Source: Gemmatimonadota bacterium
GTDB lineage: Bacteria > Gemmatimonadota > Gemmatimonadetes > Gemmatimonadales > GWC2-71-9
Direction of reading: 5' to 3'
NCBI GenBank assembly: GCA_003222055.1
Contig: QHUT01000076.1
Location: forward strand, 1-32,392
DNA length: 32,392 nt
In this document: positions 4,154-15,511 of the stretch, one piece after another
Layout of the letters: each line of letters begins with the position of its first letter
Numbering within the stretch: position 1 is the first letter of the stretch
Translations under genes and position numbers: made by a program
The notes under the pieces: model-generated
Told to the model about the DNA's origin: nothing
The model's input: the letters and a program-made list of their open reading frames with translations, nothing else
Database searches by the model: none

Positions 4154-4606
4154 CTAAAGTTTTGCAGACACCCCGGCCGGGTCAATCGCAGCGCATAGCA
4201 CGACCGCGTCCTCGACCGGCCTGCGGTAGTACCGCGCCCGTCGGGCCACCTCTCCGAACCCCAGCGCTTCGTAAAGCCGCCGGGCGCCCGCGTTCGACTC
4301 TCGCACCTCGAGGTACACCACGCGCACGCCCCGGGCCCCCAGCGCGGCGAGCACGTGCTCCACCAGCGCCCGTCCCACCCCGTGGCGCCGATGGGCCACG
4401 GCCACCCCAAGGTTCAGAATCTCACCCTCGTCCGCCGCGCAGTGCGCAATCACGTAGCCCGCGACCAGGCCGTCCACTTCGGCGACGAGGAACGGCAGAC
4501 CAGAGGTGACGCACTCCGCGAAGTCGCGACGTGACCAGGGATCGGAGAATACGGCGCGCTCGATCGCCGCGACGTCGTCGACGTCAGCCGGCGCGGCCGG
4601 ACGAAT
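4154..4606 (-). CDS. rimI: RimI-like N-terminal acetyltransferase (start codon uncertain)
   Basis: A GNAT-fold acetyltransferase; RimI acetylates the N terminus of ribosomal protein S18. Visible motifs are ERAVFSDPWSRRDF at the N terminus, EILNLGVAVAHRRHGVGRAL (strand four and the acetyl-CoA pyrophosphate loop with RRxGxG/A) and YLEVRESNAGARRLYEALGF, all strongly RimI-like. It follows tsaE and tsaB, the usual neighbourhood. No in-frame ATG, GTG or TTG precedes the conserved N terminus. Candidates are ATT at 4606 (used here, 150 residues), ACG at 4624 with GGGAGG six bases upstream, and CTG at 4657. A GTG at 4477 would remove about 43 residues of the domain. The end overlaps tsaB by at least 23 bases. 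Confidence 0.85.
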   Translation of the reverse strand: MRPAAPADVDDVAAIERAVFSDPWSRRDFAECVTSGLPFLVAEVDGLVAGYVIAHCAADEGEILNLGVAVAHRRHGVGRALVEHVLAALGARGVRVVYLEVRESNAGARRLYEALGFGEVARRARYYRRPVEDAVVLCAAIDPAGVSAKL

Positions 4607-5318
4607 CCGGGAAGGGACGGCCGTGGCGCGCCTCCCATTGGGCCTGCGCTTCGGCAGGACGTCCGTAGACCGGCTCGGCGATGGCGGGATCGTCGAGGGT
4701 ACGACCGACGCCGGGGCGCCCGAGCAGGGCGAGCAGCATCGTCGCGGCGGGGGGGAGGCTGTCGAGCGGTACGGGGGGGGCGCCGGCCCAATCGGTCATC
4801 TGGTCCGCGAAACCGGGGCCACCGCCGCCGACCACGAGGCGGGGGCGCACCGGGGCGACACGCACGAACTCGGCCGGCGTCAGGACGGCGGGCTCCACCA
4901 AGCTGTCCACGCGGTCGGGGTGGAAGGCGTACATCGCGCCGTACACCTGACCGCGCAGCGCGTCGAAACAGGCCGCCACCGGATCGGTGCCGAGGCGCAG
5001 CGACGCCCCGGCGGCTGCGGCCATGAGCGACGGAATGGTTCGAATGTCGAGCCCGGCCTCATGCGCCAGCCCCTTCGCCGCCGACCAGCCGATGCGCAGC
5101 CCGGTGAAGCTCCCCGGCCCATCCCCGACCACGATGCCTTCGAGGTCCCGGGGGCGGAGGCTCAGCCGGTCGAGCACGAAGTCGACCAACCGGATGATCT
5201 CCGCGGCGTGCCGGCGGGCTCCCTGCACGTGCGCCCCGCTCTCGGCGACCGGCGGCCGGCCGGCGGCGACGCTCGCGATGTCGGTGGCGGTATCGATCCC
5301 GAGCCAGAAGCCGACCAT
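4584..5318 (-). CDS. tsaB: tRNA threonylcarbamoyladenosine biosynthesis protein TsaB
   Basis: Partner of TsaD and TsaE in transferring threonylcarbamoyl to A37 of ANN-decoding tRNAs (t6A). The 244-residue protein belongs to the ASKHA fold: it begins MVGFWLGIDTATDIASVA, has GARRHAAEIIRLVDFVL (around residues 33-50) and the diagnostic VVGDGPGSFTGLRIGWSAAK (around 67-90). The ATG at 5318 is chosen because it starts just before the conserved first strand. The frame stays open further upstream only because it runs through the heptad repeat. The gene follows tsaE and overlaps rimI. No tsaD is in the window. Confidence 0.95.
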   Translation of the reverse strand: MVGFWLGIDTATDIASVAAGRPPVAESGAHVQGARRHAAEIIRLVDFVLDRLSLRPRDLEGIVVGDGPGSFTGLRIGWSAAKGLAHEAGLDIRTIPSLMAAAAGASLRLGTDPVAACFDALRGQVYGAMYAFHPDRVDSLVEPAVLTPAEFVRVAPVRPRLVVGGGGPGFADQMTDWAGAPPVPLDSLPPAATMLLALLGRPGVGRTLDDPAIAEPVYGRPAEAQAQWEARHGRPFPDSSGRAG

Positions 5319-5330
5319 CAAGCACAACCC

Positions 5331-5411
5331 GATTGCGGATTGTGGATTGCCGATTGCGGATTCGAAGCACGAACCACCAATCCGCAATCCGAAATCCGCA
5401 ATCCGCAATCC
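5331..5411. repeat. Heptad palindromic repeat, copy 1
   Basis: Two arms of about 32 bases form an imperfect inverted repeat (about three mismatches) around a 15-base loop at 5364-5378. Each arm is a tandem of the 7-mer GATTGCG and close variants (GATTGTG, GATTGCC, GATTTCG). The right arm (5379-5409) is an exact 31-base reverse-complement match to the left arm of copy 2 at 12181-12211. It fills most of the gap between the tsaE stop and the tsaB start. No T-tract follows on the coding strand, so it is not a standard terminator. Confidence 0.9.
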
Positions 5412-5430: not shown

Positions 5431-5841
5431 TCACCGAGTCTCCTCCAACTCCCGGATGTCCGGTTGCTCACCGTAACTCAGCCGAAAGTGCCGATCCAGC
5501 GGTGGCGCCCACGGTCCGGCGCGCTCCGGCCATTCGATCAGTACGATGGCCCCGTCGCGCATCATGTCGTCGAACGCGAGGTCGCGGGCCTCGTCGGGCG
5601 ACTTGAGCCGGTAGCAGTCTACATGGTAGACCGGCCGGCCGTCGGAGGTTTCGTAGTGATGCACGAGGGCGTAGGTGGGACTCGTGGCCAGTACGCGAGC
5701 GCCGAGGCCCGCGCAGATCGCCTGGACCAGAGTCGTCTTCCCCGTCCCGAGCTCGCCGGAGAGCCCGATCACGACGGGGCCCGCGAGGTCGCGCCCGAGC
5801 GCGTCACCGAACCGCTGGAGCTCGTCCGCGGACAGGCGCAT
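5431..5841 (-). CDS. tsaE: tRNA threonylcarbamoyladenosine biosynthesis ATPase TsaE
   Basis: P-loop ATPase that drives the TsaB-TsaD complex in t6A synthesis. The 136-residue length is typical. The Walker A loop is [15 protein letters not shown] (about residues 29-43), followed by [11 protein letters not shown], the family's switch-like segment, then HVDCYRL with the conserved Asp, and IVLIEWPER near residue 100, the Walker B-like strand with Glu-Trp. The ATG at 5841 lies inside the end of uvrB (38-base overlap). It is followed by the heptad palindrome and then tsaB. Confidence 0.95.
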
Positions 5842-7828
5842 GACGCCCGGTGTCGGCTTCGGCCCGGAGCTCGAGGATCTGGTCGCGCAGCACGGCGGCG
5901 AGCTCGAAGTCGAGCTCTTCGGCGGCGGCCTGCATCTGACTTTCCAGCAGCTTGATGAGGGCGTCGCGCTCCTTGGCGTCGGCCGGGCGCGGTACGCCGC
6001 CCGCGGCGGGGCGTGCGGTCTTGGCGTCCGCGAAACGGGTGGCGAAGCGGACCTGGTCGACGGATTTGACGATCGAACGGGGCGTGATGCCGTGCTGCGC
6101 GTTGTACGCCACCTGCGCCTCGCGCCGGCGGGTCATCTCTTCGAGGGCGCGCTGCATGGAGCCGGTGACGCGGTCGGCATAGAGAATCGCGCGCCCCTGC
6201 AGGTGGCGCGCGGCGCGGCCGACGGTCTGGATGAGCGACCGGTCGGACCGCAGGAACCCTTCCTGGTCCGCATCCAGGATGGCCACGAGCGACACCTCCG
6301 GCAGATCGAGCCCCTCGCGCAGCAGATTGATTCCCACGAGCACGTCGAATTCGCCGAGCCGCAGGCCCCGAATGATCTCGACCCGCTCGATCGCGTCGAT
6401 CTCGGAATGCAGGTAGCGCACGCGCACCCCGTGCTGCTGCAGATAGTCGGTGAGGTCCTCGGCCATCCGCTTGGTGAGAGTGGTGACGAGCACGCGCTCG
6501 CCCTTCTTCTCGCGCAGCCGGATCTCGTGCAGCAGGTCGTCGACCTGCCCCTTCACGGGACGGACTTCCACCTCGGGGTCCACGAGGCCGGTCGGGCGGA
6601 TGATCTGCTCGACGACGACGCCGCCGGCCAGCCGCAGCTCTTCCTCGCCCGGCGTGGCCGACACGAACACGATCCGCGGCACGAGCTGCATGAACTCGTC
6701 TATGCGCAACGGCCGGTTATCCAGGGCGGAGGGCAGCCGGAACCCGTAATCGACCAGGGTCTGCTTGCGGGAGCGGTCTCCTTCGTACATCCCGGCGACC
6801 TGCGGCAGCGTCTGGTGCGACTCGTCGAGGATGCACAGGTAGTCGGCGGGGAAGTAGTCGAGCAGGCACGCGGGGCGCTCCCCCGCCGCGCGGCCGGTCA
6901 AGTGGCGCGAGTAGTTCTCGATCCCCGTGCATCGCCCGACCTCGAGCAGCATGTCGATGTCGAAGTTGGTGCGCGACTCGAGGCGCTGGGCCTCGAGCAG
7001 CTTGTTCCGGGCACGCAGCTCCGCGAGACGGCCCGTGAGCTCGGCCCGGATGGCCGCGACGGCACGCTGGATGGTGGGGCGCTCGGTCACGAAATGGGTG
7101 GCGGGATAGACGGCGGCGCGCGGTAGCTCGGTGATGGTGTCGCCCGTGAGCGGGTCGATCTTCGCGATGCGCTCCACCGTGTCGCCCCAGAATTCGATGC
7201 GCACCGCCTGCTCGTCGTAGGCGGGGAACACCTCGATCGTATCGCCCCGTACGCGGAACGTGCCGCGTTCGAACGCGACGTCGTTCCGCTGATATTGCAC
7301 GCCCACCAGCTGCTCGAGCAGCGCGTCCCGGCCGCGCTCCTCGCCCACGCTCGCCGTCACGAGGCGCTGCCGGTACATCTCGGGATCGCCCAGGCCGTAA
7401 ATGGCCGAGACGCTCGCGACGATCACTACGTCCTCGCGCTCCATCAGGCTCGACGTGGCCCGCAGCCGCAACCGGTCGATGTCGTCGTTGATCGACGAAT
7501 CCTTGGCGATGTAGGTGTCGGTCTGCGGGACGTAGGCCTCGGGCTGGTAGTAGTCGTAGTAGGAGATGAAGAATTCGACGGCGCTCCGCGGGAAGAACGA
7601 CTTGAGCTCCCCGTACAGCTGGGCCGCGAGCGTCTTGTTGTGCGACAGCACGAGCGTGGGGCGCCCGAACCGGGCGATGACGTGCGCCATCGTCATCGTC
7701 TTGCCCGAGCCGGTGACGCCGAGCAGCGTCTGGTAGCGGTCGTCCCGGGCGAGGCCCGCCGACAGCTCCCGGATGGCGCGCGGCTGATCCCCCGCCGGCG
7801 TGAACGGGGACACGAGGTCGAACGGCAT
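5804..7828 (-). CDS. uvrB: UvrABC excision nuclease subunit B
   Basis: Damage-verifying DNA helicase of nucleotide excision repair; loads on DNA with UvrA and recruits UvrC. At 674 residues it is full length. Motifs in order: [11 protein letters not shown] at the N terminus, Walker [13 protein letters not shown], the beta-hairpin region [20 protein letters not shown], the Walker B/DEAH-like box [12 protein letters not shown], helicase motifs V and VI in [19 protein letters not shown] and QTVGRAARH, and a C-terminal UVR coiled-coil ([20 protein letters not shown]) that contacts UvrC. A short basic tail follows, overlapping tsaE. It starts nine bases after the rel stop codon. Confidence 0.98.
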
Positions 7829-11453: not shown

Positions 11454-12137
11454 CTACAGCAGCCCCGCCTCCGCGAAACTGACGTAGCGGTCGCCTGCGA
11501 CGATCACATGATCGTACACCGGGAGGTCGAGCAGGCGGCCGGCGTCGACGAGCTGCCGCGTCACGGCCCGGTCGTCCGCCGACGGCGTGGGGTCGCCGCT
11601 CGGGTGATTGTGGACGACGATGATGCCCGCCGCGGCCTCCGCGATGGCGGCCCGGAACACCTCGCGCGGGTGGACCAGCGAGCTGTTGAGGATGCCCCGC
11701 GTGATCAGCAGGTCGCCCAGGATCTGGCTCTGGCTCCCCAGCGCCAGCACGTGGAACTCCTCCACCGCGAGGTCCCGCAGCCGCGTCCCATAAAAGCGCT
11801 GCACGTCCGCGGGTCCCCGCACGCGCTCGGGCGGCGGTTCTGTCTCGCTCTCCACGCGGCGCCCCAGCTCGAGCGCCGCGGCGACGCGCGCGGCCTTGAT
11901 TCGTCCCACGCCAGCGACCTTGGCCAATTCCGCTGAGGGCCGCCCCGCGAGGCGCCGCAGCGAGCCGTCCACGCGGGCCAGCACGGCGCCCGCAACGGCG
12001 AGCGCGTCACGACCGCTGCACCCCGTCCCCAGCAGAATGGCCAGGAGCTCCTGCCCCGTCAACGCGGCGGGGCCCACGCTCCAGAGGCGCTCGCGCGGCC
12101 GGTCGTATTCGGGATGCTCGGAAAGGCGCAGGGGCAT
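11454..12137 (-). CDS. radC: RadC/YsxA-type JAB domain protein
   Basis: A 227-residue protein of the RadC family. The N-terminal half has helix-hairpin-helix-like segments (ELLAILLGTGCSGRDA and LAKVAGVGRIKAARVAAALEL) and the C-terminal half is a JAB1/MPN metal-binding domain with the signature VHNHPSGDPTPSADD, in which the two His and the Asp coordinate zinc. The old link to radiation resistance in E. coli is disputed and the cellular role is unclear. The start at 12137 gives the family N terminus MPLRLSEHPEYDRPRERL. It is the first gene after the palindrome that follows secA and converges on the PAP2 gene. Confidence 0.94.
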   Translation of the reverse strand: MPLRLSEHPEYDRPRERLWSVGPAALTGQELLAILLGTGCSGRDALAVAGAVLARVDGSLRRLAGRPSAELAKVAGVGRIKAARVAAALELGRRVESETEPPPERVRGPADVQRFYGTRLRDLAVEEFHVLALGSQSQILGDLLITRGILNSSLVHPREVFRAAIAEAAAGIIVVHNHPSGDPTPSADDRAVTRQLVDAGRLLDLPVYDHVIVAGDRYVSFAEAGLL

Positions 12138-12180: not shown

Positions 12181-12259
12181 ATTGCGGATTGCGGATTTCG
12201 GATTGCGGATTCGGCCTAGCCTACCTCCAATCCGCAATCCGCAATCCCCAATCCGCAAT
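12181..12259. repeat. Heptad palindromic repeat, copy 2
   Basis: Inverted repeat with 31-base arms (two mismatches) around a 17-base loop at 12212-12228. The arms are tandem GATTGCG-type heptads. The left arm is identical over 31 bases to the reverse complement of the right arm of copy 1, so the two copies are in opposite orientation. The palindrome begins immediately after the secA stop codon on the coding strand and is the only large structure between secA and radC. It has no T-tract. Confidence 0.9.

Positions 12260-15511
<3,252 letters not shown>

Follow-up and report, generated by a model that had tools for sequence, protein, structure and literature searches.

The window, the whole 32,392-nucleotide stretch of DNA that was analysed, is contig C128 of the 3.69 Mb, 173-contig assembly of a Gemmatimonadota bacterium (genome G000). 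It carries two palindromic elements, one between tsaE and a tsaB-like gene and the other between secA and radC, in the following arrangement:

4584-5318, minus strand: tsaB-like gene (TsaD family in Pfam, 4.9e-25), downstream of element 1, with 13 nt between the element and its start codon
5332-5362, plus strand: element 1 left arm, 31 nt, (ANNGCGG)x4+ANN
5363-5378, minus strand: element 1 loop, 16 nt, with a direction on the minus strand, where it reads GGTGGTTCGTGCTTCG (consensus of its class, GGAnnnnnnnnnnTCG)
5379-5409, minus strand: element 1 right arm, 31 nt, reverse complement of 12181-12211
5431-5841, minus strand: tsaE (Pfam TsaE, 1.5e-33), upstream of element 1, with 21 nt between its stop codon and the element
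11454-12137, minus strand: radC (RadC, 3.8e-39), downstream of element 2
12181-12211, plus strand: element 2 left arm, 31 nt
12212-12228, minus strand: element 2 loop, 17 nt
12229-12259, minus strand: element 2 right arm, 31 nt, abutting the secA stop codon (12260-12262)
12260-15511, minus strand: secA (SecA_DEAD, 1.3e-118; SEC-C motif), upstream of element 2

The heptad palindrome that the original prediction placed at 5331-5411 is real. Its arms (5331-5362 and 5379-5410) are 32 nt long, 91% complementary and spaced by 16 nt, while those of the second copy at 12181-12259 (12181-12211 and 12229-12259) are 31 nt long, 94% complementary and spaced by 17 nt. The arms of both elements follow the formula (ANNGCGG)x4+ANN, in which NN is mostly TT. 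As had been proposed, the segment 5379-5409 matches 12181-12211 base for base when reverse-complemented, with the variant heptad GATTTCG included. The proposed division into one conserved and one variable arm is fortuitous: each arm closely copies a single consensus, and alignment of the copies scatters the variants GATTTCG, GATTGTG and GATTGGG over either arm, mainly in units 2 and 3. When up to one mismatch is allowed, the window has 16 occurrences of the sequence GATTGCGGATT, against 0.42 expected and a shuffle maximum of 3. As RNA the two elements have predicted folds of -51 and -52 kcal/mol (z -8.5). The printed element flanks, read by eye, show no consistent T tract of an intrinsic terminator, and no Rfam match was found in the window or in loci L199, L203, L217 and L230.

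The elements are dispersed across the genome. The three-heptad search has 68 exact matches of TT type (GATTGCGGATTGCGGATT) and 162 when NN is left free inside GATTNNGG (GATTNNGGATTNNGGATT), and the non-TT pattern GGAVNGC has 41; backwards controls gave 0 in each case. Element statistics were obtained from ~350 kb of G000 pieces chosen around elements, in which 57 paired elements were parsed and none in the reversed sequences. Their architecture is fixed, with exactly four units in 92 of the 114 arms (81%). Loop lengths peak at 16-17 nt (22 elements), 24 nt, 40-41 nt (10) and 55-57 nt (8). Short-loop elements measure 78 bp and have sharp ends; their loops of 16 nt have a direction, with the consensus GGA.gc.CG.cCtTCG, and are found in both orientations. 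This fixed length, the sharp ends and the recurrent directional loops in either orientation support the suggestion that the element disperses as a unit. Note that the 57-nt loops (L204, L221 and element 1 of genomes G001 and G009) belong to a range of long loops that often carry GGTTCGATCC-like motifs resembling a tRNA T-arm. Inverted heptad arms at L199:6099-6122 and 6430-6446 (G000:C24:14099-14451) stand ~310 nt apart and possibly form one element with a very long loop.

A motif-independent palindrome scan of the G000 pieces for periods 3-12 gave 69 calls at period 7, 3 at period 8 and none at the others, a ratio that is biased by the selection of pieces with GCGGA heptads; this bias does not extend to the GGGAAAC and octad cases. 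The GGGAAAC heptads form a second palindrome family of similar geometry, near the Xanthomonas GGGAATC unit discussed below, with the following members:

L203:13532-13610
L215:2354-2440
L222:1681-1788
L223:5499-5564
L229:4754-4896
L237:4641-4716

Two palindromes of 8-nt units (GACGCCNA; L208:4494-4615 and L213:2824-2907) have the sole period other than 7 in these pieces.

The elements lie in short intergenic gaps, mostly between co-directional genes and typically at 0-8 nt from the stop codon of the gene upstream. With genes called by a custom codon-usage predictor, no annotation being used, 47 of the 57 G000 elements have a co-directional context, 2 a convergent and 1 a divergent one, while 7 are spanned by a predicted ORF; these last may be mis-calls because the arms can be read through in every frame. 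In 43 of 56 cases a long ORF has its stop codon from -6 to +30 nt of an element edge, most commonly at -2 to +8, against 3-10 of 48-57 at control positions displaced by 600-1500 nt. The same interval holds a stop codon in 50 of 118 cases in other phyla (7-12 of 92-114 when shifted). Much of this placement can be explained by selection in tight operons, where insertions would disrupt genes or ribosome-binding sites, and it does not amount to proof of targeting.

The distribution extends far beyond this genome. A search of named-species genomes for GCGGANN arms, with three units required, found at least 118 stretches. Among the matches listed are Planctomycetota, Acidobacteriota, Gemmatimonadota, Verrucomicrobiota, Chloroflexota and Omnitrophota MAGs, as well as Nitrospira-type, delta-, beta- and gammaproteobacterial and Bacteroidota MAGs. 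Nearly all carriers from other phyla are MAGs, and some binning errors are therefore possible. The matches listed from other phyla contain 129 elements (0 in reversed sequences), with four units in 199 of 258 arms (77%) and, in the remainder, three (32 arms), five (16), six (5) or two (6). The search asked for only three units and so did not itself impose the count of four. The Gemmatimonadetes MAG loci L101 and L125 align over ~5 kb to G000 pieces at 78-79%, which is the basis for assigning the host to Gemmatimonadota. Matches occur in 86 of the 395 genomes of a sample of this phylum and come in bursts, a single genus spanning 0 to 79 matches. Among 2.9 million viral contigs no more than 3 match, and a phage origin was rejected.

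Within the genus each species has its own heptad preference. Counts of heptads of TT, AC and RT type are 68/4/27 in G000, 4/58/1 in G009, 15/41/4 in G001, 21/31/0 in G007, 2/2/115 in G006 and 0/1/92 in G004. These preferences meet at shared sites, as seen when 19 junctions and the two window sites were compared with four relatives. The closest of the four, G009, has 91.5% identity to G000 over the upstream coding stretches and carries an element or half-element at 17 of the 20 junctions located; read by eye, its heptad type differs from that of G000 at 16 of these 17. At the 3' end of secA the heptads are TT in G000, AC in G009 and G001, and GAGTGCG/GAATGCG in G004. At site 0 the loop retains GCTGACGATTCGT, and the arms are TT in G000, AC in G001, G005 and G009, and GTGGTGC in G007. 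At sites 14, 15 and 16 the loops of G009 (AC) match the loops of G001, a more distant genome, at p values of about 0.02 or below; AC is thus likely ancestral and G000 the genome that changed. Significantly matching loop pairs (p<0.05) are direct in 9 cases and inverted in 3 (sites 3, 5 and 6). A general rule by which arms are re-typed and the loop is kept was discarded: the loop also changes at most sites, site 0 being the one place where the inner loop can still be recognised. Since at one site most loops from elements of different type do not align, replacement cannot be separated from loss followed by re-insertion.

Some sites are element-free in relatives. At uL2-uS19 (site 2) G005 and G009 have a TAATG overlap instead of an element, and at site 3 the same two genomes have no element and read TGACCATG. 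Elements are found at uL2-uS19 in some species (loci L004, L244, L267 and L274). Collapsed remnants in the form of mini-palindromes are seen at site 10 in G005 and at site 3 in G001. Note that contigs C96 and C112 of G009 both cover tsaE-tsaB, at 93-94% to the window, with different elements, so this assembly is possibly a mixture of strains.

The explanation that we favour, at evenly balanced confidence, is that the elements are copies of a short non-autonomous dispersed repeat that forms hairpins, turns over by template switching and conversion, survives in operon gaps and probably modulates messages. Template switching between inverted repeats inverts spacers and homogenises arms (PMC8604942). 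Replication-associated template switching, together with ectopic gene conversion between hairpins, would spread and replace copies, driven by host machinery rather than by a RAYT or a reverse transcriptase, and the same ectopic events may carry the locally dominant heptad through the element family. The copies would persist chiefly between the genes of operons, downstream of stop codons, a position in which the hairpin, once transcribed (about -50 kcal/mol), may be tolerated. It probably acts on the upstream message, through ribosome release, protection of the 3' end or RNase III cleavage, modes known from stop-proximal REPs of E. coli. E. coli REPs at most 15 nt from a stop codon are reported to influence translation (PMC12306157), which by analogy makes such an effect plausible for heptad hairpins. 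Transposition and conversion are deduced here from sequence patterns and no event was seen directly; template switching alone gives no measuring device for exactly four units.

Such a device is what a dedicated trans-acting system would supply by measuring four 7-nt steps as it makes, moves or rewrites elements, the heptad being the specificity of the version present in each lineage. This reading is unlikely, if still a serious candidate. The unit of 7 and the count of four stay constant while the heptad varies (GATTGCG, GAACGCG, GARTGCG, GGGATGC, GTGGTGC, GGGAAAC), one heptad dominates in each species, and the bursts within one genus (0-79 matches) point the same way; against it, no candidate gene was found and the two families tested, Y1_Tnp and RVT_1, do not track the elements. 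A more specific form, to which we give slightly less credence, would have a system that is neither RAYT nor RVT_1 write four-step hairpins in many phyla, its word changing between species, by analogy with changes of telomere repeats, and being installed at pre-existing stop-proximal sites.

It is rather improbable that the elements are simply regulatory RNA hairpins selected at gene ends, as attenuators, insulators or mRNA stabilisers, and evolving by selection at each site. Their stop-proximal position in G000 and other phyla, the strong predicted folding and the effect reported for E. coli REPs would all suit this role, whereas the element-free junctions in relatives, the ribosomal uL2-uS19 included, and the lack of an Rfam match in the loci searched speak against it. 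Similarly improbable is an origin as ordinary simple-sequence repeats, with slippage making the heptads and hairpin template switching mirroring them. Heptads are over-represented among prokaryotic simple-sequence repeats, according to work cited in PMC4692102, and variant units and mini-palindromes do exist. Slippage predicts a variable copy number, however, and this reading is weakened because the unit number is fixed, mostly at four across phyla; the same GCGGA frame and 16-nt loop moreover recur at many unlinked sites.

The original prediction likened the element to a REPIN or MITE. Mobilisation as a REPIN by a RAYT (Y1 transposase) is already contradicted and very improbable. Four Y1_Tnp (RAYT-like) matches in G000 speak in its favour. 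Three of these genes were read with ~1.5 kb on each side; each adjoins a palindrome of its own and no heptads were found within that distance:

L046 (G000:C169): GACCCCGGGCGCAAGCCCGGGG
L047 (G000:C74): CCACGCCGGAGGCGTGG
L048 (G000:C35): CCCCGGGGCGTGGCCCCGGGG

These three genes and their palindromes are likely true REP/RAYT sets. Y1_Tnp has no match in the heptad-rich G001, G006 and G007 (assemblies 93, 73 and 94% complete) and is present in heptad-free genomes, without correlation with heptads. An origin from a reverse transcriptase or retron was rejected, RVT_1 being undetected in every heptad-rich genome of a 61-genome panel. The comparison to a MITE stands as regards the terminal inverted repeats, the short non-coding sequence and the many copies, and is not borne out in the strict sense: target-site duplications of 2 nt were seen in 3 of 39 cases and of 3-9 nt in 0-1 of 39, none standing out, no clean pair of empty and filled sites with target duplication and no transposase partner were found, and an unsystematic look at the ~350 kb of G000 pieces noticed no parent transposon with the same ends. 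Least probable of all is a signal of DNA-uptake type with species dialects as in Neisseriaceae (PMC3630211), which the dialect-like specificity and the inverted pairs behind genes recall, as GATTGCGG outside palindromes (19 against a letter-shuffle expectation of 11) shows single heptads to be only weakly enriched.

The preferred reading, a dispersed hairpin repeat turned over by template switching and conversion, has to be placed among known repeats. With REPs and REPINs the elements share dispersed intergenic hairpins, often right behind stop codons; they differ in their heptad-periodic arms and in having no tie to a RAYT. Dispersed tandem 7-mers also include the STRR heptads of cyanobacteria and the TAACTGA repeats of Beggiatoaceae. 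The latter are direct repeats of 2-6 copies, mostly upstream of start codons, with one inverted case (PMC4679880). In Geobacter metallireducens, elements of four heptads (consensus GGACCGG) are dispersed in 49 copies within and between genes and are predicted to be regulatory RNA, and the available part of the report describes no inverted partner arm (PMC2700814). The closest likeness is to the heptad repeats of Xanthomonas (GGGAATC), reported with those of Nostoc (GGGGA(T/C)T) by Rehm et al. 2015 (PMC4692102), which gives a closely similar repeat a formal description. Xanthomonas units are also 7 nt long and mostly four in number, with 70-75 inverted pairs per genome, which like the present elements lie close to where the upstream ORF ends and are under-represented between divergent ORFs; two species mostly have them at matching intergenic positions, with variation in sequence. 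Reported unit numbers in Xanthomonas and Nostoc range from 2 to 26, compared with four in about 80% of arms here. The Xanthomonas units form G-quadruplexes, to which the authors related the count of four. GCGGANN has no GGG run, whereas the minor GGGAAAC family of G000 has one; because units without G3 tracts show four as well, the four-unit preference needs a cause other than G-quadruplexes. The available sections of the Xanthomonas description mention neither loop inversion nor a replacement of heptads at orthologous sites, both of which are seen here.

The present elements belong with the known Xanthomonas type of heptad inverted repeat. Added here are the 31-nt arm fixed across phyla, the heptad replacement at orthologous sites, the loop inversion and the evidence against a link to RAYT or RVT_1. 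The original prediction mentioned spurious peptides from similar heptads in several environmental genomes, and a literature search for the peptide strings gave no match. The heptad arms could explain odd heptad peptides in gene predictions, because a stop codon arises in them only where NN is TA. What recurs in many phyla is a geometry that stays constant, with inverted arms of four 7-nt units placed behind stop codons, combined with a free sequence. The swap of heptads at most sites shared by species that are ~91.5% identical makes a concrete and testable case of concerted evolution in bacteria.
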